The position numbers and the translations under genes were made by a program. DNA of 64,000 nt, from NCBI GenBank assembly GCA_030536995.1, contig JAUNOY010000003.1, forward strand, positions 62,001 to 126,000. Direction: 5' to 3'. Below are positions 5,856 through 26,821 of the stretch, one piece after another; the first letter of the stretch is position 1, and every line of letters begins with the position of its first letter. The notes beneath the pieces are model-generated. The model made no database searches and was not told the DNA's origin. It saw only the letters and a program-made list of their open reading frames with translations. This stretch comes from Eubacteriales bacterium (GTDB taxonomy: Bacteria; Bacillota; Clostridia; Lachnospirales; Lachnospiraceae).

Positions 5856-5893
5856 ATGATTATTTATATTATTACCGGAATATAGCCCTGCAC

Positions 5894-6403
5894 TTATCGT
5901 TCTGCCAAAAAATGTTTCAGTCGCATTTCTTCCTCAATACCATCCAGGTCTTCCTCTGATTCCGCCGTGACCGTATGGTAATGATATCCATGGGTTACCC
6001 TGTTTAAAGGGCTGCAGGTACCTTCTGATATGTTTTTCACAAAGGCTGCCGCTTTTTTGCGGGAATCCACATTCAGTTCCGCGCGAAGCTCTCCATAAAG
6101 CTCATGCTTCACAAAAATATCCTTCACGCAGCCGCCACAGTCCGCAACAAGATTCAGTTCCTCCTGAATCCTGTCGTCACCGTGCTGTACATAGAATACT
6201 CTGGACGCCTTATCGCTTCTCTGACAGAGATACCCTCTGTTTGTAGATAAAATATCATATCCTTCTGCACGGAGAAGGGCAATATCCTGAACAATCACCT
6301 GTCTGCTTACATGAAATTTCTCTGCAAGCAGGGTTCCGGATGCCGCTTTTCCGTTTCCGGTAATGAAGTTTATAATTTCCTGTCTGCGTTCTTCTCCGCT
6401 CAT
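5894..6403 (-). CDS. niaR: NiaR-type NAD biosynthesis repressor
   Basis: A 169-residue regulator. An N-terminal winged helix-turn-helix (SGTLLAEKFHVSRQVIVQDI) is followed by the 3H domain that binds nicotinic acid, with its conserved histidine segments (KHELYGELRAELN, and the cluster HGYHYHTV). This matches the YrxA/NiaR family, which represses NAD synthesis or niacin uptake genes when niacin is present. The ATG at 6403 has AAGGA ten bases upstream; an in-frame TTG at 6433 has no better site. It is the last gene of nadA-nadB-nadC-niaR, so it probably controls its own operon through the palindrome at 9628-9655. Confidence 0.88.
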   Translation of the reverse strand: MSGEERRQEIINFITGNGKAASGTLLAEKFHVSRQVIVQDIALLRAEGYDILSTNRGYLCQRSDKASRVFYVQHGDDRIQEELNLVADCGGCVKDIFVKHELYGELRAELNVDSRKKAAAFVKNISEGTCSPLNRVTHGYHYHTVTAESEEDLDGIEEEMRLKHFLAER

Positions 6404-6468
6404 GAATATCCAATCCTTTCGATAATTCCCCAAGTGAAGCAGATTTTTCTTATCCGCTTTTCTCTTTT

Positions 6469-7323
6469 TTATTCTGTCGCGTGAAGATTTTTCATGGAAA
6501 TATCGAGGATTGGAGAAGAATGTGTAAGAGCACCGCTGCTGATATAATCAACTCCGATTTCCACAAGTCTGTCTACGTTTTCCCTTGTAACATTTCCGGA
6601 ACACTCAGTCTCTGCACGGCCGTCAATCAGGGCAACCGCCTCTCGCATCATATCCGGCGTCATATTGTCCAGCATAATGATATCTGCCCCTGCTTCTACA
6701 GCCTCTTTTACCATCTCAAGATTCTCAACCTCAATTTCAATCTTGCGCACAAAAGGTGCATACTCTTTCGCCATCTCAATTGCCTTTGTTACACTTCCTG
6801 CTGCTCCGATATGGTTATCTTTCAGAAGTATTCCATCAGAAAGATTATATCTGTGATTGTAACCGCCGCCTACTTTTACCGCATATTTCTCAAATACTCT
6901 CATATTCGGAGTTGTTTTACGCGTATCCAGAAGCTTTGTTTTGCTGCCTTTGAGAAGATCTGCGATCTGTCTTGTATATGTTGCGATCCCGCTCATTCTC
7001 TGAAGATAATTGAGGGCTACGCGCTCGCCGGAAAGAAGAACACGGATATCACCTCTTACCTTCCCCATAAGCTGACCTTTTTTTACAAAATCGCCGTCTT
7101 TTACATAAAGCTCTGTCTGGGTTTCACAGTCAAGAAGCTCAAAAACACGGGCATACACCTGAAGTCCGGCAATAACTCCGTCCTCTTTACAGATTAAATC
7201 AACTTCTCCTGCTTTCGCTTCGCGCATCACTGCATTTGTTGTGATATCTTCGCTTGTGATATCTTCCTGTAACGCCTGAAGGAGAAGGTTATCCACATTT
7301 AATCCCATTGTAATTTCATTCAT
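6469..7323 (-). CDS. nadC: Quinolinate phosphoribosyltransferase (nicotinate-nucleotide pyrophosphorylase)
   Basis: A 284-residue enzyme that converts quinolinate and PRPP to nicotinate mononucleotide, CO2 and pyrophosphate, the third step of de novo NAD synthesis. Family motifs are present: ERVALNYLQRMSGIAT, DTRKTTPNMR, KVGGGYNHR, LLKDNHI, IEIEVENL and IMLDNM. The length is normal for NadC. The start overlaps the end of nadB by eight bases, showing translational coupling. It lies in the nadABC-niaR operon. Confidence 0.95.
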   Translation of the reverse strand: MNEITMGLNVDNLLLQALQEDITSEDITTNAVMREAKAGEVDLICKEDGVIAGLQVYARVFELLDCETQTELYVKDGDFVKKGQLMGKVRGDIRVLLSGERVALNYLQRMSGIATYTRQIADLLKGSKTKLLDTRKTTPNMRVFEKYAVKVGGGYNHRYNLSDGILLKDNHIGAAGSVTKAIEMAKEYAPFVRKIEIEVENLEMVKEAVEAGADIIMLDNMTPDMMREAVALIDGRAETECSGNVTRENVDRLVEIGVDYISSGALTHSSPILDISMKNLHATE

Positions 7324-10749: not shown

Positions 10750-11427
10750 ATGGAAAATAATACAGAACAGCAGTGGCTGAATACACCGGATCCACAGATT
10801 TTTGTCAAAAATGCCGCGAAATACAACGACCTGATGATGATGTACCGCTGTACCATCCGCGAAATACAGACAAAGCTTGAGGTTCTCAACGATGAGTTTT
10901 CTGTAGAATATAAACGTAATCCTATCTCATTTATTAAAACACGAATCAAGTCCCCTGAGAGCATCTACAGAAAGCTTCAGAAAAACGGCTATGAACTCAC
11001 TCCCGAAAACATTCAGGACAAGCTCAACGATGTAGCCGGAGTCCGTGTAGTATGTGCATTTATCGATGATATTTATACCGTGGCAGATCTTCTTGCCAAT
11101 CAGGATGATATTACCGTTCTCCAGGTGAAGGATTATATTAAGAATCCCAAGCCAAACGGTTACAGAAGTTATCATATGATTGTCGAAATTCCTGTCTTCT
11201 TTTCCAAGGGCAAAACGCCAATGCGTGCAGAGGTTCAGATCCGCACCAACGGAATGGATTTCTGGGCGACTCTTGAACACCAGCTTCGCTATAAAAAAGG
11301 AATTGAAGAAATGGAGGGCTACGACAAAATCAGTGAAGAACTGACCCATTCTGCCTACCAGCTCATAGAAATGGATAATGAAATGCAACGAATTAAAAAT
11401 AAAATAGGACGTTTCCACGATATCTGA
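10750..11427 (+). CDS. relQ: Small alarmone synthetase (GTP pyrophosphokinase, RelQ/YjbM type)
   Basis: A 225-residue cytoplasmic enzyme that transfers pyrophosphate from ATP to GTP or GDP. RelA/SpoT synthetase motifs are complete: RIKSPESIYRKL (ATP binding), DVAGVRVVCAFIDDIY, NPKPNGYRSYHMIVEI and VQIRTNGMDFWATLEHQLRY. There is no HD hydrolase, TGS or ACT domain, so it is the stand-alone RelQ type. The start at 10750 is fixed by GGAGG seven bases before; the open frame runs 60 codons further upstream with no coding character. The gene is monocistronic, between its own promoter and a strong terminator. Confidence 0.92.
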   Translation: MENNTEQQWLNTPDPQIFVKNAAKYNDLMMMYRCTIREIQTKLEVLNDEFSVEYKRNPISFIKTRIKSPESIYRKLQKNGYELTPENIQDKLNDVAGVRVVCAFIDDIYTVADLLANQDDITVLQVKDYIKNPKPNGYRSYHMIVEIPVFFSKGKTPMRAEVQIRTNGMDFWATLEHQLRYKKGIEEMEGYDKISEELTHSAYQLIEMDNEMQRIKNKIGRFHDI

Positions 11428-11456
11428 AACAGATATCCGAAAACGTCCATCATCTT

Positions 11457-11484
11457 AAAACGGAGGGATTTTCCCTCCGTTTTT
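11457..11484. terminator. Bidirectional terminator after relQ and the nucleoside importer operon
   Basis: AAAACGGAGGG and CCCTCCGTTTT form a perfect stem with T runs on both strands. It lies between the convergent relQ and permease genes. Confidence 0.85.
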
Positions 11485-11485
11485 G

Positions 11486-12475
11486 TTATCTCTCCTCTCG
11501 GAAATAGGATAAGCCAAGACTTTCCGGAGGCTGATTTTCTTTTTTCTTGCGGAAGCTTACTACAACAAGAACCACAATTGTTACTACATACGGCACCATC
11601 TGAACCAGATCCGTAATATAGCTTGCTACCTTGATTCCCAGAATACTTGGCAGGAACTGGTAGAGCCAGTAGAGCATACCGAAAAGATAAGCGCCCCAAA
11701 TGGCATTTAACGGCTTCCACGTTGTAAAGATTACAAGAGCTACAGCAAGCCAGCCAAGAGCTTCAATCTGCCCTGTAGTAGCCCAGATACCCTGATTGTA
11801 ATCAAGTACATAGTAAAGACCGCCGATACCGGAAAGGCCTGCTCCCAGACAGGTTGCAAGATATTTATATTTGGTTACATTAATACCTGCCGCATCTGCT
11901 GTTCCCGGATTCTCTCCCACTGCACGAAGATTCAGACCCACACGTGTTTTATTCAGTATGAAATAAAGTACAATAGCTATAATAATTGCCGCATATACAA
12001 GAAAACCATAGCTGAAAACAGTTTTTCCGAGAATTCCCATTTTTGACAGATATGGGATTTTTTTCGTGAATGTCGCATTTGCAAGAGGCGCTGCACTGTA
12101 GCTGGAACCGTCAAGGATAAATACGCCAAAGAAGTTCGCAACACCCATACCAAAGGTGGTAAGTGCAAGACCCGTTACATTCTGATTCGCACGAAGAGTA
12201 ATTGTCAGGAAGCTGAAGATCAGCCCTCCAAACATGGAAGCCAGAATTGCCGCAGTAAGCGCTATGATTACGCAGACCACACCACTTGGATTCGCTGCAT
12301 TTTTTTCATAAAAGTACGAACTTGCAAATCCGGCAAAACCACCAAGATACATAATTCCCGGAACCCCCAGATTCAGGTTTCCGGATTTCTCTGTCACGAT
12401 TTCTCCCATGGAACCAAACATGATAATTGTTCCGAAAGGAATTGCTCTGATAATCCATGCAATCAAACTGTTCAT
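11486..12475 (-). CDS. Nucleoside ABC transporter permease (NupQ/YufQ-like)
   Basis: A 329-residue membrane protein of the branched-chain/BMP permease family with about eight to nine hydrophobic helices. Typical features are MFGSMGEIVTEKSGNLNLGV at the start and the coupling-loop region RAVGENPGTADAAGINV. It pairs with the permease just upstream to form the membrane channel of a purine-nucleoside or nucleoside-like importer. Its ATG directly follows the stop of the preceding permease gene. A lysine-rich tail and the relQ-side terminator follow. Substrate is inferred from the BmpA-type binding protein of the same operon. Confidence 0.88.
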   Translation of the reverse strand: MNSLIAWIIRAIPFGTIIMFGSMGEIVTEKSGNLNLGVPGIMYLGGFAGFASSYFYEKNAANPSGVVCVIIALTAAILASMFGGLIFSFLTITLRANQNVTGLALTTFGMGVANFFGVFILDGSSYSAAPLANATFTKKIPYLSKMGILGKTVFSYGFLVYAAIIIAIVLYFILNKTRVGLNLRAVGENPGTADAAGINVTKYKYLATCLGAGLSGIGGLYYVLDYNQGIWATTGQIEALGWLAVALVIFTTWKPLNAIWGAYLFGMLYWLYQFLPSILGIKVASYITDLVQMVPYVVTIVVLVVVSFRKKKENQPPESLGLSYFREER

Positions 12476-13585
12476 CTACTGCACCTCCTTATGTCCGCGG
12501 AAAATCATCTTGTAATTGATGAAGAATTCGCTGCCCAGGATACAGAACAGGATAATACCTTCAATAATACTTGCTGCAAAATCATTTAGGCTGTACGCTG
12601 AGGCAATTTCTGCCGCTCCTCTTGACAGGAAAACAAGAAGAAAAGAGATAAGAGCCATATAAAAGGTATTAAACTTTGCAAGCCATGCCACAATAATCGC
12701 TGTAAATCCCTGTCCGCCTGCTGAGGTTGTAGAAATAGTCTGATCCTTTCCTGCTACAATGAGGAAGCCTGCAAGACCACAGATTGCGCCTGAAATCAGC
12801 ATAGTACGAATCGCAACACGCTTTACATTAATTCCTGCATAGCGGGCTGTATTCTCAGATTCACCTACAACTGTAATTTCGTATCCCTGCTTGGAATATT
12901 TCAGATAAAGAAACATTACAATCGTAAGAACTGCAACAACAAGGATATTAATATTATATCTCTGTCCCATAAACTGCGGAAACCATCCTGCCTGGGTAGA
13001 CATGTTCAGCTTGCCGAGACTGGTTGCTTTTCCTCGCATGATATTGGTCATACATGCTACAATACTGGTGGCGATATAGTTCATCATCAGGGTAAAAAGT
13101 GTCTCATTCGTATTCCAGTGAGCCTTGAAAAATGCCGGAATAAATCCCCATAACGCGCCTGCAGCCACACTTGTCACAAACATGGTAAGGAATAATAACG
13201 GAGTAGACATACTCTGTCCGAATTTTACCATCACAAGAGCAGTTGCAAGACCTCCCATCAGTACCTGTCCTTCTGCACCGATGTTCCAAAAACGCATTTT
13301 AAATGCAGGTGCAAGCGCAATTCCAATACACAGAAGAGTTACCAGATCACGAAGCGCCCATGAAAAACGCACGGAGTTCATAAATGTACCGTTAAACATT
13401 ACTCCATAAACTGCAAGCGGATTCAGCCCTGTCACAGAAAAAATAAATACCGCATCAATAATAAGCGCAAGCAGGATAGCTGCTGCCCGCACATATATTT
13501 TTCTTCCCATTGTGGTGCCGTCACGTTTCACGATACGCACAAAAGGTTCTTTTGCCTTCGTATTCCCATTACTCATTTTCGGCAC
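12476..13585 (-). CDS. Nucleoside ABC transporter permease (NupP/YufP-like)
   Basis: A 369-residue permease. A basic cytoplasmic start (KRDGTTMGRKIYVRA) precedes about nine membrane helices. The family signature MRFWNIGAEGQVLMGGLAT and the coupling loop VVGESENTARYAGINV are present. It is the larger of the two permeases of the importer and overlaps the end of the ATPase gene by 17 bases. It abuts the second permease gene, so all three are translated together. Confidence 0.88.
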   Translation of the reverse strand: MPKMSNGNTKAKEPFVRIVKRDGTTMGRKIYVRAAAILLALIIDAVFIFSVTGLNPLAVYGVMFNGTFMNSVRFSWALRDLVTLLCIGIALAPAFKMRFWNIGAEGQVLMGGLATALVMVKFGQSMSTPLLFLTMFVTSVAAGALWGFIPAFFKAHWNTNETLFTLMMNYIATSIVACMTNIMRGKATSLGKLNMSTQAGWFPQFMGQRYNINILVVAVLTIVMFLYLKYSKQGYEITVVGESENTARYAGINVKRVAIRTMLISGAICGLAGFLIVAGKDQTISTTSAGGQGFTAIIVAWLAKFNTFYMALISFLLVFLSRGAAEIASAYSLNDFAASIIEGIILFCILGSEFFINYKMIFRGHKEVQ

Positions 13586-15110
13586 CTCCCATCTTAAGAT
13601 TCGTCATCAGAAGTCCTACTTCTTCTTTTGTTGTCTTTCTTCCATCTACGATTCCGTTCACCTGTCCGTCGCACAGAACAAGGATTCTGTCGCAAAGATC
13701 AATGAGAACGTCCAGATCCTCACCTACATAGATAACTGCGGATCCCTGCTTCTTCTGCTCATTGAACAAATTATAGATTGTGTAGGAAGTGTTGATATCA
13801 AGTCCGCGCACCGCATATGCTGTCATCAAGACGGTAGGTTCTTCCGCAATCTCACGTCCTACCAGAACTTTCTGTACGTTTCCCCCTGAAAGACGTGATA
13901 CAGGAGTATTGATACTCGGAGTAACAACTTCAAGCTCATCCTTTACTTTTTCTGCAAGCTTCTTCGGCGCCTTCACATCTGTGAGAATAGAATGACCATT
14001 TCCGTAACTCTTAAGAAGCATATTTCCTGTCATTCCCATAGAGCCTACAAGCCCCATTCCAAGGCGGTCCTCCGGAACGAAAGCCAGATGTACGCCTGCG
14101 TCGCGGATTTTCTTCGGTGTTTTTCCAATCAGTTCTATGGGCTTGTCTTCTTTTCCTTTTTCATAGAAAGTTACACTGCTTCCTGCCGCTGTAATCTGAA
14201 GTCCGGCAATTGCCTCCAGAAGCTCCTTCTGACCGTTTCCGGAAATTCCTGCAATTCCCAGAATTTCGCCGCCATAGGCATCAAAGCTGACGTTTTTAAG
14301 CACCTGTACATTTTCTTTATTGTAAACAGAGAGATTCTTCACTTCAAGACGTTTCACCGGATTTACCGGCTGGGAGCGTTCGATGTTCAGAGCAACCTTT
14401 TTGCCCACCATCATCTCTGTGAGAGAACTTGTTGTCGCATCCTTTGTCTCAACACTTCCTACATATTCTCCTTTGCGGAGAATTGCCACACGGTCTGAGA
14501 TTGCAAGCACCTCATGAAGCTTATGTGTGATAATAATAACAGACTTATTATCTGCTTTCATATTTCGGATTACTTCAAAGAGACGGTCTGTCTCCTGAGG
14601 GGTAAGAACTGCGGTAGGTTCATCCAGAATCAGAATGTCCGCGCCGCGATAAAGCACTTTTACGATTTCCAGCGTCTGTTTCTGGGAAACACTCATCTCA
14701 TAAACTTTTTGTTCCAGATTCAAATCAAAGTGATATTTCTCACAGATTTCCTTTGTCCTTGCCTCAATCGCCTTCATATCGAATTTTTCTTTCTTATCAA
14801 GACCAAGGGCAATATTTTCTACTGCTGTAAAAACATCAATCAGTTTAAAATGCTGATGAATCATACCGATTTTCAGATTATACGCATCTCTTGGAGAGCG
14901 GATTTCCTCCGCTTTACCATTGATGAGAATTTCTCCTTCATCCGGATAATAGATTCCGGCAATCATATTCATCAGCGTTGTCTTGCCGCTTCCGTTTTCT
15001 CCAAGAAGCGACAGAATTTCACCTTTTCTGATGTCCAGCGACACATTTTTATTTGCAACAACTTTTCCAAATGTTTTTGTTACATTTTTAAGCTGTACTG
15101 CATATTCCAT
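13569..15110 (-). CDS. Nucleoside ABC transporter ATP-binding protein (NupO/YufO-like)
   Basis: A 513-residue ATPase with two ABC modules. The first (residues ~5-235) has Walker A GENGSGKTT, Q-loop HQHFKLID, signature MSVSQKQTLEIVK and Walker B ILILDEPTAVLTP. The second (~260-500) has a degenerate Walker A GISGNGQKE, the signature LSGGNVQKVLVGRE and VLMTAYAVRGLD in place of a full Walker B, as is usual in this family where one site is inactive. It energises the two downstream permeases. It lies 115 bases after the binding-protein gene, and two hairpins in that gap probably reduce its expression. Confidence 0.92.
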   Translation of the reverse strand: MEYAVQLKNVTKTFGKVVANKNVSLDIRKGEILSLLGENGSGKTTLMNMIAGIYYPDEGEILINGKAEEIRSPRDAYNLKIGMIHQHFKLIDVFTAVENIALGLDKKEKFDMKAIEARTKEICEKYHFDLNLEQKVYEMSVSQKQTLEIVKVLYRGADILILDEPTAVLTPQETDRLFEVIRNMKADNKSVIIITHKLHEVLAISDRVAILRKGEYVGSVETKDATTSSLTEMMVGKKVALNIERSQPVNPVKRLEVKNLSVYNKENVQVLKNVSFDAYGGEILGIAGISGNGQKELLEAIAGLQITAAGSSVTFYEKGKEDKPIELIGKTPKKIRDAGVHLAFVPEDRLGMGLVGSMGMTGNMLLKSYGNGHSILTDVKAPKKLAEKVKDELEVVTPSINTPVSRLSGGNVQKVLVGREIAEEPTVLMTAYAVRGLDINTSYTIYNLFNEQKKQGSAVIYVGEDLDVLIDLCDRILVLCDGQVNGIVDGRKTTKEEVGLLMTNLKMGGAENE

Positions 15111-17886: not shown

Positions 17887-18348
17887 TTATCCTTCAATGG
17901 AGATATAGTGTTTTTTCTCTTCTACTGCTTTCTGCTCTTCTTTAGGAACTGTAAATCTTAAGATTCCATCTTCGTACTTCGGATGAATATCTTTTTCAGT
18001 TACATGCTCTCCCACATAAAAGCTTCGGCTCATGCTGCCTGCATAACGCTCTCGTCTGATATATCTGCCATCCTTATCTTGCTCATCCTTATCCAGCCCT
18101 TTGGCTGCGCTGACTGTAAGACAGCCATTTTCAAGCTGCATCTGGATTTCGTCTTTCTTAAATCCAGGAAGATCAATATCTACTTCAAATTCCTTATCAG
18201 TTTCTTTCACATCAGTCTTCATCATGTTCTTAGCATGTTTACCATACAACTCTTTGTCCACATCCGGAAATGCCGGGAAGGATGGGAATCTGAAATCATT
18301 CATAAAGTTATCAAATAAATCTTCTCCAAAAATACTAGGTCTTAACAT
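17887..18348 (-). CDS. hsp20: Hsp20 / alpha-crystallin small heat-shock protein
   Basis: A 153-residue ATP-independent holdase. An N-terminal segment (MLRPSIFGEDLFDNFMNDF) precedes the alpha-crystallin domain (about 45-145) with DIDLPGFKKDEIQMQLENG, LTVSAAKG, GSMSRSFYVGEHV and YEDGILRFTVPK, and an ISIEG tail in place of the usual IxI motif. It is the first gene of the heat-shock operon with the dnaJ-like gene, behind a sigma-A promoter overlapped by a CIRCE operator. Confidence 0.93.
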   Translation of the reverse strand: MLRPSIFGEDLFDNFMNDFRFPSFPAFPDVDKELYGKHAKNMMKTDVKETDKEFEVDIDLPGFKKDEIQMQLENGCLTVSAAKGLDKDEQDKDGRYIRRERYAGSMSRSFYVGEHVTEKDIHPKYEDGILRFTVPKEEQKAVEEKKHYISIEG

Positions 18349-18468
18349 AAGTCATTCTCCTTTCATGAGATGAAATAAATATATATTAGCACTATTGGGA
18401 AAATCCAAAGTGTCGAGTTTTTAAGAACTATGGGAATTGGATTTTTCCTCTTCCTTTGTTCTACTTGT

Positions 18469-18510
18469 GTTATAACACTTTATTTAGCACTCGTCAAGAG
18501 GGAGCGCTAA
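18469..18510 (-). promoter_or_regulatory. CIRCE operator (HrcA) over the hsp20 promoter
   Basis: TTAGCACTC (18484-18492), nine bases, then GAGCGCTAA (18502-18510) is the CIRCE inverted repeat with one mismatch from TTAGCACTC-N9-GAGTGCTAA. On the minus strand TTGACG (18497-18492) lies inside it, and TATAAC (18474-18469) follows after 17 bases. HrcA repressor bound here would block the -35, so hsp20-dnaJ should be induced by heat. hrcA itself is not in the window. Confidence 0.85.
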
Positions 18511-19352
18511 TATTTTTGTGAAGATTTTGTGACCAGATGATACTCCCCCAGCATTGTCTCATGATATGCCGCGCGCTTTCTAAGAAGCATGAGTTTTTTT
18601 ATTTCCTGTAATTCATCTGTTTTGATTTTTTCAAGTTTTTTGAGACGGCTTTCATCCAAAACAATCTCCGACACATATTTCTCGTACAACTCAGATTTGG
18701 AATTCCACAGGACTGCTTTTTCCCCGTAACGTATCTTTATATCACGAGCTATTAAAAGTCCTTCCGGATCGAAATCCCCTGAATAGTACAGGATATGATC
18801 TTCTGCCTTTACGCTGCTCAGTTCTCTCATATAGTCCTGATAATTCTGGTTCAGACGAATATAATCGTTATTCAGGTCGTTCCACCAGGTATATATTTTT
18901 TCTCTGTCTTTATTCTGCATTTCCGGGATTTTTCCAGGATTAATCCGTATACGCTCCAAAAGCGTGGGTTCAAGAGAAGAACTCTCTATAAAAAGATTTT
19001 CCACCCGGATAACCATTCGTTCAATTTCCACCGTGGCTTCCGAGAGCTGATAACGAAATTTTTTATTCTTAAACTCTTCTATTGTGGATACCTTGCGGGT
19101 ATCCTGCATCGTAATCAGGTTTCCCCAGGATACCAGAGCATTCAGATCCTGCTGACATTGTTCCGGTGTGTAATCCCGAAAATAAGAATCTTCTTTCAAT
19201 TCCTCATATATTTCTTCCTAATAAATCCAGTATTTCAGTTTCTCTGACTTTAAATAAAAAAGCCTGATGATGGGGCTGTATCTGTCCGTATTTTCTACGT
19301 TCAAATACTTCGCTTCCAACATCGGCTTTCTAAGAGTTTCATTTGTTTGCAT
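18507..19352 (-). pseudogene. Wadjet operon remnant: DUF2397 (TIGR02677) start fused to DUF2399 (TIGR02679) end
   Basis: From an ATG at 19352 the frame reads an N-terminus typical of TIGR02677/DUF2397 (LEAKYLNVENTDRY, LKYWIY). It then meets TAG at 19220-19218 and continues as EEIYEELKEDSYFRDYTPEQ, WGNLITMQDTRKVSTIEEFK and WWNDLNNDYIRLNQNYQDYM. Right after VKAED (near 18797) it turns, without a frame change, into YYSGDFDPEGLLIARDIK, a Toprim-like DxD segment typical of DUF2399/TIGR02679 C-termini, and runs to a stop at 18507. These are the first and last genes of a four-gene Wadjet (TIGR02677-02678-02680-02679) operon. The ATPase and partner genes, and both inner halves, are missing. A good promoter remains upstream. 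I infer an internal deletion plus a nonsense mutation. The family names come from recall of the profiles, not a search. Confidence 0.75.
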
Positions 19353-19431
19353 TCTATTTACACAGACCTTTCTTTTTTTGTAAAACTGCCCTTTATCGTA
19401 CTATATTCGGTATACGGTTTTGCCTGTGCTT

Positions 19432-19460
19432 ATTATAACTTTTTCCTGACAGTAAATCAA
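19432..19460 (-). promoter_or_regulatory. Promoter upstream of the Wadjet remnant
   Basis: On the minus strand TTGATT (19460-19455) and TATAAT (19437-19432) have a 17-base spacer, 80 bases before the broken gene's ATG. It appears intact. Confidence 0.6.
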
Positions 19461-19466
19461 TTGTAA

Positions 19467-20159
19467 TTATAAGATAGACCTTACTCCCTGAGTTGTAAGC
19501 AGAACCTTTTTCACCGGGGGGAGCCCTTCTGTAAGGGCTGACGTCTGAGTGATGGGGATATAAATCCCATCTGAAGGACTGATAAGATCCCCCACAGCAA
19601 TGCATGGGCGCCAAAGCCATATTTCTGAATCATTCCCTCTGCTTCCCTGCGCTGTAGATGCCTGTGCTCCTGCTCCGACTCCTGCTGCGCTTTCTTCCTG
19701 CAGGCAGTATTCCAGTTCTTCGGAAGATGCTTTGAGTTTCTTCAATCCATTCTGCGAAATTGTGTGACCATAGCTGTCCGCGAGTCCGTTCAGAGCATCT
19801 TTTCCGATAAAAAGTACCGGTGTATTTCCAAGAGAAATTTCTTCGGGCGCATTTCCCGTCATCTGAAATTCTTTCATATCCACTGCTGTAAAGGTTGCGT
19901 CCATTGTATAATCCTTCCATCTAAGCTTTACCGGAATTTCATAAACAGGACTGACGGACAGAAAGCCTTCTGCCTTGGAGATTTCCTCCAGAAAGGCTTC
20001 GTCATAGGAAAGCTCCCCTAACTCTACAATTTCCTGATGTACCTTCCTGCTCTGTATTTCTCCGTATATCAGCTGTCCTCCCAGATACAGCACACTCACC
20101 GCCATCCCCAAAAGCAGGATCCAAAACGGGAAAAAATGTCTCTTTGGCTTTTTACTCAT
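19467..20159 (-). CDS. Single-pass membrane protein with MacB-core-like outer domain
   Basis: A 230-residue protein starting MSKKPKRHFFPFWILLLG: one N-terminal membrane helix (about 10-30), then an extracellular part. Stretches such as ISKAEGFLSVSPVYEIPVKL, ATFTAVDMKEFQM and IYIPITQTSAL recall the outer core domain of MacB/FtsX-type permeases, but no further helices follow. The ATG at 20159 overlaps the previous stop (ATGA); the longer open frame to 20285 lies wholly inside the neighbour. It is the last gene of the export-type cluster. I do not recognise the family; a role as an outer accessory part of the ABC complex is inferred from context. Confidence 0.6.
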   Translation of the reverse strand: MSKKPKRHFFPFWILLLGMAVSVLYLGGQLIYGEIQSRKVHQEIVELGELSYDEAFLEEISKAEGFLSVSPVYEIPVKLRWKDYTMDATFTAVDMKEFQMTGNAPEEISLGNTPVLFIGKDALNGLADSYGHTISQNGLKKLKASSEELEYCLQEESAAGVGAGAQASTAQGSRGNDSEIWLWRPCIAVGDLISPSDGIYIPITQTSALTEGLPPVKKVLLTTQGVRSIL

Positions 20160-22801: not shown

Positions 22802-24343
22802 TCAATACCCCAGTGAACGGTTGATCACGCTTCCGTCAATGGCGTTAATGGTAAGATAACTCTTGCTCTTCGAGCTATTTGTATAATCTTCTGTTCCCTG
22901 AGCTTTCTCTTCCTCTGTGCTCTTTGCAGTATAGCTTCCAAAGAAATCCCAGGCAGGAACAAGAATGCCGTTCTTGCTGTCTGTAGATGGCTCGTAAATT
23001 CTTGTATAACCAAAAACAATTCTGTCAATATCGTATCTTTGTTCCCTTTCATCTTCCGTCCACTGTGCATTCTGAATCAGCATCATTTTTTCATAAGTCT
23101 TTATAATCTCATCAAAGGATTTCAGCTTTACCTCCTGGGTTTTCGTCTCTTTGACATCATAGTAATTGTTGAAATCCACCAGACTGATACCGTCAGAGCC
23201 AATATAGAACGTCAGCTCCTCATATCCCCATGTTGGCATATCGCCCGACAAATCTTCTGCTTCCCCTCCCGGATCAGAGGTATAAGTAACCGGAATCCCG
23301 TCAATCTTTCTGGAATAGTGAAAGATATATCCCACATCAAAAATGCTGTTCTCTTTCTCCCCCGGTATTTCCCCCAGGTAAAGACCGTAATCCCAGGCAG
23401 TCAGCTCCATATTCGGAATTTCCAGAAGCTTCACTTTTTCATCCGAAATTCTTTTCGCTTCCTCAAAGGTCAGCTTCTGGCGCTTCTTCAGTTCCTCCTC
23501 ATCCGGAAAGTCTTTGATATGATTTCCTTCTCTGTACCCGCTGTATTCCTCCCAGCTTATATACATGGACGTATCCAGTTTTTCATCTGATGTGAGATCG
23601 CGGATACTCATCTCAAAAGGTCTGTAATCCCCTTTTTGAAGATGATAGGTGTAATGTTTTCCCTCCGGAGTTTCCGCCACTCCGCTAAATTGATCCTCAC
23701 TGATCCAACTGCCGCCTGTTCCTTCATAGTCCACCTGTTCCAGCCCGAACTGAGGTTTTACTTCTTCCGGTGTAACCTCTTCCGGCGCAGTTTCATATTC
23801 TGCTTCCAGCTCTTCTATAATCTGATAAATATCAACATTATAATTTCCGTTTTCATCCTTTCCCCATCCATTAGGATCCAGTTCCCCTGCTGCCAGATAT
23901 GCTTTCCAGCGATTCAGTTCTTTCAGAATCTGTGGTTTTGTTCTTCTGTGCCAGGTGTTTCCTGAATATATTTTTGCATCCGGGAAAAATATCTCCGTCA
24001 GCTTATCAATGGTCTCCTGGTCAAAGGGATGCTGACTGACTGAAATTACAGAAGCTTTTTCTACATCCGGAATTTCAACCTCTGCATCTGTGTGAATGGT
24101 CAAAAGTCCTGTCTCGTCCTTTTCTTCACTTTGATATGTCTTTGGCGCCCCTAGGATTTCTCTTATTGTCTTCCCCTTTTTTTCTCCGTCTGAGTCCCCT
24201 TTTTTATCAGCCTCCTCGTAATTTTTTTCCGCTTCTTTTCCTTTCATTTTTACAAGTGATTCCTCTGGTGTCCGGGCGCATCCCGTCAAAATGCCTGCTG
24301 CCAGAAATATACTCCCTGCCAAAATCACAGCCTGTTTTTTCAT
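22802..24343 (-). CDS. Large lipoprotein, paralogue 2 (unknown function)
   Basis: A 513-residue lipoprotein with the lipobox LTGC (cysteine 22) followed by ARTPEESLVKMKGK and a charged linker. The mature protein is rich in Asp/Glu/Tyr, and its C-terminal half includes IDGIPVTYT, MPTWGYEELTFYIGSDGI and ILVPAWDFFGS, ending LTINAIDGSVINRSLGY. It is a clear paralogue of the 25286-26821 product: the same landmarks occur in the same order with similar lengths. The two genes flank a permease gene. The tail resembles PepSY-like or regulatory lipoprotein beta-sheets, but I cannot assign a family. A ligand- or antibiotic-sensing role next to the exporter is inferred. Confidence 0.7.
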   Translation of the reverse strand: MKKQAVILAGSIFLAAGILTGCARTPEESLVKMKGKEAEKNYEEADKKGDSDGEKKGKTIREILGAPKTYQSEEKDETGLLTIHTDAEVEIPDVEKASVISVSQHPFDQETIDKLTEIFFPDAKIYSGNTWHRRTKPQILKELNRWKAYLAAGELDPNGWGKDENGNYNVDIYQIIEELEAEYETAPEEVTPEEVKPQFGLEQVDYEGTGGSWISEDQFSGVAETPEGKHYTYHLQKGDYRPFEMSIRDLTSDEKLDTSMYISWEEYSGYREGNHIKDFPDEEELKKRQKLTFEEAKRISDEKVKLLEIPNMELTAWDYGLYLGEIPGEKENSIFDVGYIFHYSRKIDGIPVTYTSDPGGEAEDLSGDMPTWGYEELTFYIGSDGISLVDFNNYYDVKETKTQEVKLKSFDEIIKTYEKMMLIQNAQWTEDEREQRYDIDRIVFGYTRIYEPSTDSKNGILVPAWDFFGSYTAKSTEEEKAQGTEDYTNSSKSKSYLTINAIDGSVINRSLGY

Positions 24344-25285: not shown

Positions 25286-26821
25286 TTAATATCCAAGCCC
25301 TCGGTCAATCACGCTGCCGTCAATGGCATTGATGGTAAGATAGCTCTGGTATTTCAAATCGTTTGTGTACGTTTCCCCTGTTGTGTATTCTGATGTGAAG
25401 CTTCCGAAAAAATCCCATACAGGTACAAGAATCCCACTTGTGCTGTCTGTGGAAGGCTCATAAATCCGGCTGTACCCAAAGGTAATTCTGTCAATATGAA
25501 ACACTTCACTTTTCAGGTCTTCCCCCATATTTGCATTCTGAATCAACATCATTTTTTCATAAATATCCATAATCTCATCAAAGGATTTCAGATTTACTTG
25601 CTGGGTTTTTGTCTCTCCGATGTCATAGAGATTGTTAAACTCCACCTTACCGATTCCATCAGAGCCCACATAAATATTAAGCCCCTCATATCCCCAGGTC
25701 TCCATATCACTGTCCATATCCTCAAGAGCTCCGCCCCGCTCCATAGTGTAAGTAATGGGGATATTTCCCAGTTTTCTTGTATAATGGAACACATATCCAA
25801 AATCCTGAGCTGTTCTTTTATATTCATCTCCGCTCTGAGCGAAATCTTCAGCCCATGCAACGGCATATTCCCATTCTGTCATCTCCATATTTGGAATTTC
25901 CAGAAGCTCTACCTTTTCCTGCGCAATTGCCAGAGCATCCTCAGGACTAAGCTTTATCTTCTTTTCCATTTCTTCCTTTGACGGACTATCCGGTGCGTCC
26001 CCCATATATTCATACCAGTTTACACTTGTATTTTCTCCTTTGACCTCCTTGTAAATCCTTTCGATGGCAACCTCCATAGGCATAGAATTATAGCGTTTAA
26101 ATTGATACTTGTACTCTTTTCCATCTGCATCTTCCACATAAGAGTCAAAATAATCGTTCATTTCTTCTTCCTCTCCGGCTCCGAAAGCAGGCTTTACTTC
26201 CTCAAGAACACGTTTTTCCGGTGCACTTTCGTATTCTGTTTCCAGCTCTTCTATGTAGCTGTTAATATCAAAAAGAAGATTTCCATTTTCGTCTGTTCCC
26301 ATATCATAGGGGTCAAGATTCCCTTCTGACAGATACCCTTTCATTTCTGTGATATCCTTCCTCACATCCTCTTTCGTTCTCTGATAGTAGCTGGAAGCAG
26401 AATAAATTTTTGCATCCGGGAAAAAGGCACTTGTAATTTTATCCATCATTTCCTGATTAAATTCGTGCTGACTTACCTGAATAGCCGACGCCTTGTCTGC
26501 ATTTGGGATTTCCACCTTTGCATCTGTAAGAATCTTAATCTTTCCGGTTTCGTCAGTCGCTTCACTTTTAATGGTTTCCGGAGCATTCACAGTCTTACGG
26601 ATGCCGGATACGTTCCCGTCCTGATTTTTATGATCTTCTTTATTTTCCTGCTTTTTCTCTTCTTCTGTATTTTCCTCTGTATCGGCAGCTTCCTCATAAT
26701 TCTTTTCGCTGGATTTTCCTTTCATTTTCACCAGTGAATCTTTTGGGGTTTCTGCGCAGCCCGCCAGAGTTCCCGTTCCGAGGAAAACACAGAGCAACAA
26801 TGAAACGATTCTTTTTTTCAT
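25286..26821 (-). CDS. Large lipoprotein, paralogue 1 (unknown function)
   Basis: A 511-residue lipoprotein: signal peptide MKKRIVSLLLCVFLGTGTLAG, lipobox cysteine at 22, then AETPKDSLVKMKGKSSEKNYEE and an acidic Gln/Asn linker. It shares its domain order with the 22802-24343 product (VEIPNADKASAIQVSQHEF, FFPDAKIYS, LLEIPNMEMTEWEYA, IYVGSDGIGKVEFNNLYD, ILVPVWDFFGS and the end LTINAIDGSVIDRGLGY). It is the first gene of the export operon; the operator-like repeat GTTACA-N5-GTTACA lies about 80 bases upstream. Function unknown. Confidence 0.7.
   Translation of the reverse strand: MKKRIVSLLLCVFLGTGTLAGCAETPKDSLVKMKGKSSEKNYEEAADTEENTEEEKKQENKEDHKNQDGNVSGIRKTVNAPETIKSEATDETGKIKILTDAKVEIPNADKASAIQVSQHEFNQEMMDKITSAFFPDAKIYSASSYYQRTKEDVRKDITEMKGYLSEGNLDPYDMGTDENGNLLFDINSYIEELETEYESAPEKRVLEEVKPAFGAGEEEEMNDYFDSYVEDADGKEYKYQFKRYNSMPMEVAIERIYKEVKGENTSVNWYEYMGDAPDSPSKEEMEKKIKLSPEDALAIAQEKVELLEIPNMEMTEWEYAVAWAEDFAQSGDEYKRTAQDFGYVFHYTRKLGNIPITYTMERGGALEDMDSDMETWGYEGLNIYVGSDGIGKVEFNNLYDIGETKTQQVNLKSFDEIMDIYEKMMLIQNANMGEDLKSEVFHIDRITFGYSRIYEPSTDSTSGILVPVWDFFGSFTSEYTTGETYTNDLKYQSYLTINAIDGSVIDRGLGY

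Follow-up and report, generated by a model that had tools for sequence, protein, structure and literature searches.

The window analysed here, a stretch of 64,000 nucleotides from a Eubacteriales gut bacterium of the Lachnospiraceae, carries between hsp20 and a cluster of ABC transporter genes a minus-strand frame (19352-18507) of 281 codons ahead of its final stop, among them a premature TAG. This TAG is codon 45 of the fused frame (19218-19220, minus strand), and the open part past it (19199-18507, minus strand) comprises 230 codons. Profile searches with the open part yielded two consecutive Pfam matches, to DUF2397 (PF09660, 4.1e-45, profile positions 40-175 of 483) and, behind it, to DUF2399 (PF09664, 2.4e-9, profile positions 59-146 of 152). 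The respective NCBIfam models, TIGR02677 (2.2e-25) and TIGR02679 (1.4e-6), matched as well, both under their curated cut-offs, as is to be expected of fragments. The PADLOC models JetA2 (2.2e-58) and JetD2 (1.2e-28) assigned the halves to type II Wadjet, and the JetA half additionally matched the JetA chain of PDB 9qe0 (1.1e-15). The initial annotation had read the first half as the first gene (DUF2397/TIGR02677) and the second as the last gene (DUF2399/TIGR02679) of a four-gene Wadjet operon, fused in frame and interrupted by a TAG at codon 45. Both identities and the interrupted fusion were confirmed, and the contrary outcome it had named, profiles matching neither family, did not occur. The features of the locus are collected in Table 1.

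Table 1. Features of the jet remnant and its immediate surroundings (positions in the window).
Feature	Position	Strand	Basis
hsp20, neighbour outside the operon	17887-18348	-	PF00011
CIRCE-like operator with one mismatch, overlapping the remnant stop codon and preceding hsp20 (minus strand)	18484-18510		1 match versus 0.04 expected
jetD remnant, final ~90-100 residues (DUF2399, later Toprim part with GDFDPEG)	18507-18806	-	profiles, alignment with L033
Deletion junction (~9 nt), uncertain by a few codons	18798-18806	-	comparison with L033
jetA remnant, ~185 N-terminal residues of type II JetA (DUF2397, kleisin), carries the TAG	18798-19352	-	profiles, tblastn with L033
Promoter-like match upstream of the remnant	19432-19460	-	10 of 12 positions
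Neighbour gene without Pfam match, last in the ABC ATPase cluster, outside the operon	19467-20159	-	Pfam scan

As intact reference we used the operon L033 of Candidatus Blautia faecipullorum, a member of the window's genus, which derives from the same genome as G008 of our genome sample (L033 JetC, 100% identity at the same contig position). Residues 24-208 of its JetA aligned by tblastn to 19352-18798 of the window with 80.5% identity, and residues 358-446 of its JetD (464 residues) aligned to 18806-18540 with 51.7% identity. The jetD remnant ends near the JetD end of relatives, and the two remnants are joined in frame at the junction. In L033 the points matching this junction lie ~7.5 kb apart, and missing from the window in comparison are the remainder of jetA, jetB, jetC and most of jetD. 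The same arrangement was analysed in the best 80 of 136 GTDB loci (L029-L108), chosen by peptide patterns of the fusion, a choice by which records close to the genome of the window may have been missed. The contig spans the operon in 63 of them and stops before the operon end in the other 17. All four jet genes were present as single frames in 57 of the 63 loci (in two of them the contig stops within jetD), and the JetA and JetD segments lay 7.1-8.0 kb apart in 60 of the 62 loci with both segments. Intact four-gene type II operons thus occur in many Lachnospiraceae, with the gene order and strand of the window remnants. The locus in the window has the properties of a relic of such an operon, namely homology of its two ends to jetA and jetD, which are arranged and oriented as in the operon, with ~7.5 kb gone and a premature stop.

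Neither end gene is complete. JetA (DUF2397/TIGR02677) has a full length of ~494 aa, of which the window holds ~185 residues with the stop at codon 45, and of a complete Toprim domain in JetD the window has GDFDPEG and lacks both ENP and C-NGQ-R, motifs that are located upstream of the junction in 60 JetD relatives. In the related nuclease MksG, mutants in the Mg2+-binding residues E236 and D279 are described in passages of PMC10123090 as drastically impaired. The glutamate of ENP may be the metal ligand, equated with MksG E236 by motif order. Since a search of solved structures with the type II JetD of L033 (E up to 0.1) gave no sequence match, the order of the motifs was the only guide in assigning catalytic residues.

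The fused frame might instead encode a short useful protein translated from the internal TTG at 19199, for example a regulator without its operon (an orphan) or a protein that acts as a dominant-negative on Wadjet complexes entering the cell. Such a product would be in agreement with the 230 codons that stay open past the stop with their conserved residues kept, and with the retained GDFDPEG, but its Toprim part would be without the ENP and C-NGQ-R motifs, and the TTG is simply the point at which the ORF tool resumed past the stop. In alignments with relatives it falls on an ordinary position inside JetA, and the start of jetA is severed from it by the stop. The initial annotation had allowed for a short Toprim protein made from this TTG, a proposal that is not upheld as the Toprim domain is cut and the conserved ENP motif is absent. 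Moreover, a JetA-JetD fusion in a single frame was found in none of the 63 genomes that the genus sample held besides the window's own, none of 298 other genomes in an even sample of the family and none of the best 80 of 136 GTDB loci. Matches as such were present in 16 of 64 genomes in the window's genus (15 besides its own, in none of which a single match covered both halves) and in 31 of 299 in the family sample (30 besides its own). Three candidates for fusions (L091, G232 and G234) were rejected, as their long alignments sit inside JetA frames of ~500 residues and represent extensions of the JetA match; L091 and G232 carry a separate JetD besides JetA. There is no sign of the short fused gene as a stable family, the outcome that had been named as speaking against a deletion scar, since no relative examined has the single frame. 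Taken together, we consider the short-protein explanation extremely unlikely.

The remaining genome was searched for the missing genes. The assembly (2.83 Mb in 40 contigs, 92% complete) contains a single DUF2397 and a single DUF2399 match by profile search, both in the window remnant, and no second JetA or JetD was found in the rest of it. JetB (TIGR02678) gave no match in this genome, while the same model matched the genomes G008 and G003. JetC (TIGR02680) likewise gave no match, with a model that in the control matched one of 14 genomes, below the cut-off. The JetC protein of L033, which matched G003 (~60% identity) and its own source G008, had no match in the genome either. The earlier claim that the SMC-like ATPase and the partner gene are gone thus holds for the assembly; a displaced jetB or jetC could conceivably lie in the unassembled part. 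Plasmid replication proteins were also not detected, neither Rep3_N (PF01051), in an assembly of a kind from which small plasmids are easily absent, nor Rep_1 (PF01446), for which the control gave no match anywhere. The fragmentation into 40 contigs at 92% completeness would leave room for an assembly artefact, in which the cell carries the whole operon but the assembler collapsed or misjoined it. We regard this as very unlikely, as JetB and JetC are without match in the rest of the assembly, the jetA part has its own stop, and the jetA and jetD genes of relatives share few bases in register at this point, so that a long repeat misleading the assembler is not expected.

Both flanks of the remnant consist of genes outside the operon. 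On one side hsp20 is followed by a DnaJ gene, and the CIRCE-like operator ahead of hsp20 is presumably an HrcA site. A scan of 19 proteins encoded nearby (6469 to 30684), a set not covering every gene, gave no match to a transposase model, in agreement with the initial annotation. Four of the 19 remained without a Pfam hit under the limits applied, and two matched DUF6034; the latter (22802-24343 and 25286-26821) are encoded near ABC transporter genes and a two-component system. A surviving promoter had also been proposed upstream of the remnant. The site itself is present, but its survival as a promoter is not supported, as the stretch contains five promoter-like sites compared to 3.1 +/- 1.8 in shuffled sequences, no clear excess. 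No terminator-like site was found in 18300-19700.

The comparison of the locus between hsp20 and the export cluster, suggested as a check in the initial annotation, revealed at this place neither a complete operon nor an unoccupied site among the loci compared. The hsp20 and dnaJ genes and the genes at 19467 and 20156 were absent from the flanks of the Wadjet loci L029-L108 (E up to 1e-15). Conversely, other members of the genus also have relatives of hsp20 and of the ABC cluster, and jet genes were absent from all 43 such loci taken from other places (L111-L139 and L141-L154, mostly with 1.5 kb flanks). Because of these 43 loci without jet genes, the operon was probably acquired at this site.

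We therefore consider it very probable that the window contains the relic of a type II Wadjet operon (jetABCD), in which one internal deletion of ~7.5 kb joined jetA to jetD, a stop codon arose, and no plasmid-cleaving function is left. The original proposal, a scar left where a deletion fused the two outermost genes of a four-gene Wadjet operon, is thus corroborated by the matches of both profiles, the intact operons in relatives and the absence of JetB and JetC matches from the rest of the assembly. According to this explanation, the operon would once have stood between hsp20 and the ABC-transporter cluster, and the deletion would have connected jetA at codon ~185 to a point ~90-100 codons before the end of jetD, with the frame preserved by chance; the stop codon near the start could have arisen before or after this event. 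The SMC motor JetC and the KITE subunit JetB would be lost altogether, the kleisin JetA from the junction onwards, and JetD in its N-terminal portion, including the beginning of the Toprim domain. Alignment with relatives shows which parts are missing, whereas a single deletion event is what we infer. In Bacillus subtilis all four Wadjet subunits are required to suppress plasmid transformation, according to passages of PMC10586767, and judged by such published requirements the remnant would almost certainly be without anti-plasmid activity.

With respect to the mechanism, short direct repeats at the ends had been suggested. They were evaluated in relatives rather than in the window's parent operon, by measuring the in-register match at the junction in the 60 of the 80 loci in which both segments could be placed, and were neither supported nor contradicted. 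The longest in-register run averaged 2.4 bases, and on average 60% of shifted registers did no worse. Runs of at least four bases were present in 10 of the 60 relatives, and a run of seven in L037 only. In a second damaged operon, L043, the aligned blocks are 92-99% identical to those of an intact relative (L044). Compared with L044, it has lost 1671, 1439 and 3124 bases in three deletions, the ends of which share ~2, 1-2 and 9 bases, respectively (alignment read by eye). The junctions of L043 (1565-3903) can be read base by base against L044, and a short tandem repeat is present there besides the three internal deletions. As these junctions share ~1-9 bases, illegitimate recombination is likely the general mechanism of these deletions. 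Another spontaneous deletion with a 5-bp direct repeat, at the cas locus of Clostridium cellulovorans, is described in passages of PMC12287153.

The age of the loss was estimated from conserved residues, with columns defined as near-invariant when at least 95% of 60 relatives carry the same residue (for JetA the first 60 of 73 full-length frames, for JetD 60 of 60). The JetA part retains 64 of 67 such residues, with one of the misses at the junction, and the JetD part 18 of 19; six of the 60 relatives score below the window in the JetA part and 15 in the JetD part. Since the remnants are barely decayed, the loss looks recent. Slight decay and an open frame past the stop would equally fit a product still under some selection, which is disfavoured by the cut Toprim domain and by the absence of the fusion from the relatives examined.

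Besides the window, relatives carry damaged jet operons as well. Large deletions were found in three of the 63 contig-spanning loci (L031, L043 and L092). L031, from the cultured strain [Ruminococcus] torques ATCC 27756, resembles the window in having a frame-keeping internal deletion in a type II operon, but differs in that jetA and jetD are whole and JetB (to ~202) is joined to JetC (from ~324; both by blastp, with the profile match from 149) in a jetB::jetC frame of 1236 aa at 11353-15063. This deletion takes the start of JetC including the P-loop-like GANGSGKS (34-41 in L033 JetC). Upstream of its jet operon, L031 also has a frame of 421 residues (5875-7140) that gives a second, partial match of JetD type (profile 297-428). 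In L092 only a jetA remnant is left, and smaller losses were seen in the jet operon of L095, which belongs to the 17 loci on cut contigs; L043, L092 and L095 are metagenome assemblies. In three further loci of the 63 (L034, L038 and L052) jetC is split into two frames, which may be sequencing faults.

Six of the 30 other matching family genomes were inspected, picked for short frames, stops or odd spacing, so that deletions in four of the six do not constitute a rate. G319 (L155) comes close to the window, as JetB and JetC are gone and the JetA and JetD segments lie ~0.1 kb apart, but JetA extends to ~364 with an inner gap (1-231 and 256-364), JetD starts at ~320 (320-441), and the frames are broken. 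In G090 (L156, contig C56, 250-748) jetA (118-214) adjoins jetC (935-1003), 250 bases from the contig end; its jetA breakpoint and the one in the window are separated by only a few codons, and an antiporter-like frame is located ahead of it (read by eye). G196 has kept pieces of JetA, JetB and JetD, and G088 the JetD end alone, after which the contig continues for another 4 kb. Of the other two, G153 runs off the contig, and G255 has all four genes at full length with one TAA in jetD. Deletions are thus present in nine genomes (the window, L031, L043, L092, L095, G319, G090, G196 and G088), and their breakpoints differ as far as they were mapped.

Compared with the known type II Wadjet system (JetABCD; TIGR02677, TIGR02678, TIGR02680 and TIGR02679), whose four genes serve to destroy small plasmids, the window agrees in the JetA and JetD families, their order and their strand, but is without JetB and JetC, has truncated JetA and JetD, and carries the premature stop. 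Intact Wadjet has been reported from another genus. Damaged defence genes are not new: passages of the PADLOC paper (PMC9252829) mention pseudogene annotations for many putative defence genes, which could be what is left of inactivated systems, and give as example a type I Wadjet with a frameshifted jetC, whereas the window holds a type II operon with its middle deleted and its end genes joined. A spontaneous 23-kb deletion including jetABCD is recorded for C. cellulovorans in passages of PMC12287153. There, as in the window, a native Wadjet operon was lost by chromosomal deletion, but the operon disappeared together with neighbour genes and in the laboratory, whereas in the window two ends remain, joined in frame. 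Passages of PMC10586767 further mention a Wadjet null mutation in a laboratory strain of M. smegmatis with improved plasmid uptake. Among the papers listed in our search of open PMC articles, none dealt with Wadjet relics in Lachnospiraceae.

As defence relics, Wadjet included, are already known, the window contains a real but ordinary relic, which as a single case is of little interest. The loss of the operon may reflect the cost of the system, a benefit of accepting plasmids, or drift. The one point reaching beyond the single case is repeated erosion, for which a proper rate would be required to gain wider interest. It is conceivable, though we think it rather unlikely, that type II Wadjet in gut Lachnospiraceae is repeatedly eroded, with motor genes deleted and the ends of jetA and jetD left behind, at a frequency that would point to selection in favour of giving up plasmid immunity, and that the window holds one recent example. 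For annotation the consequence is practical: a gene-by-gene approach would report JetA and JetD hits at this locus though the system is dead, and counting such relics inflates defence inventories.
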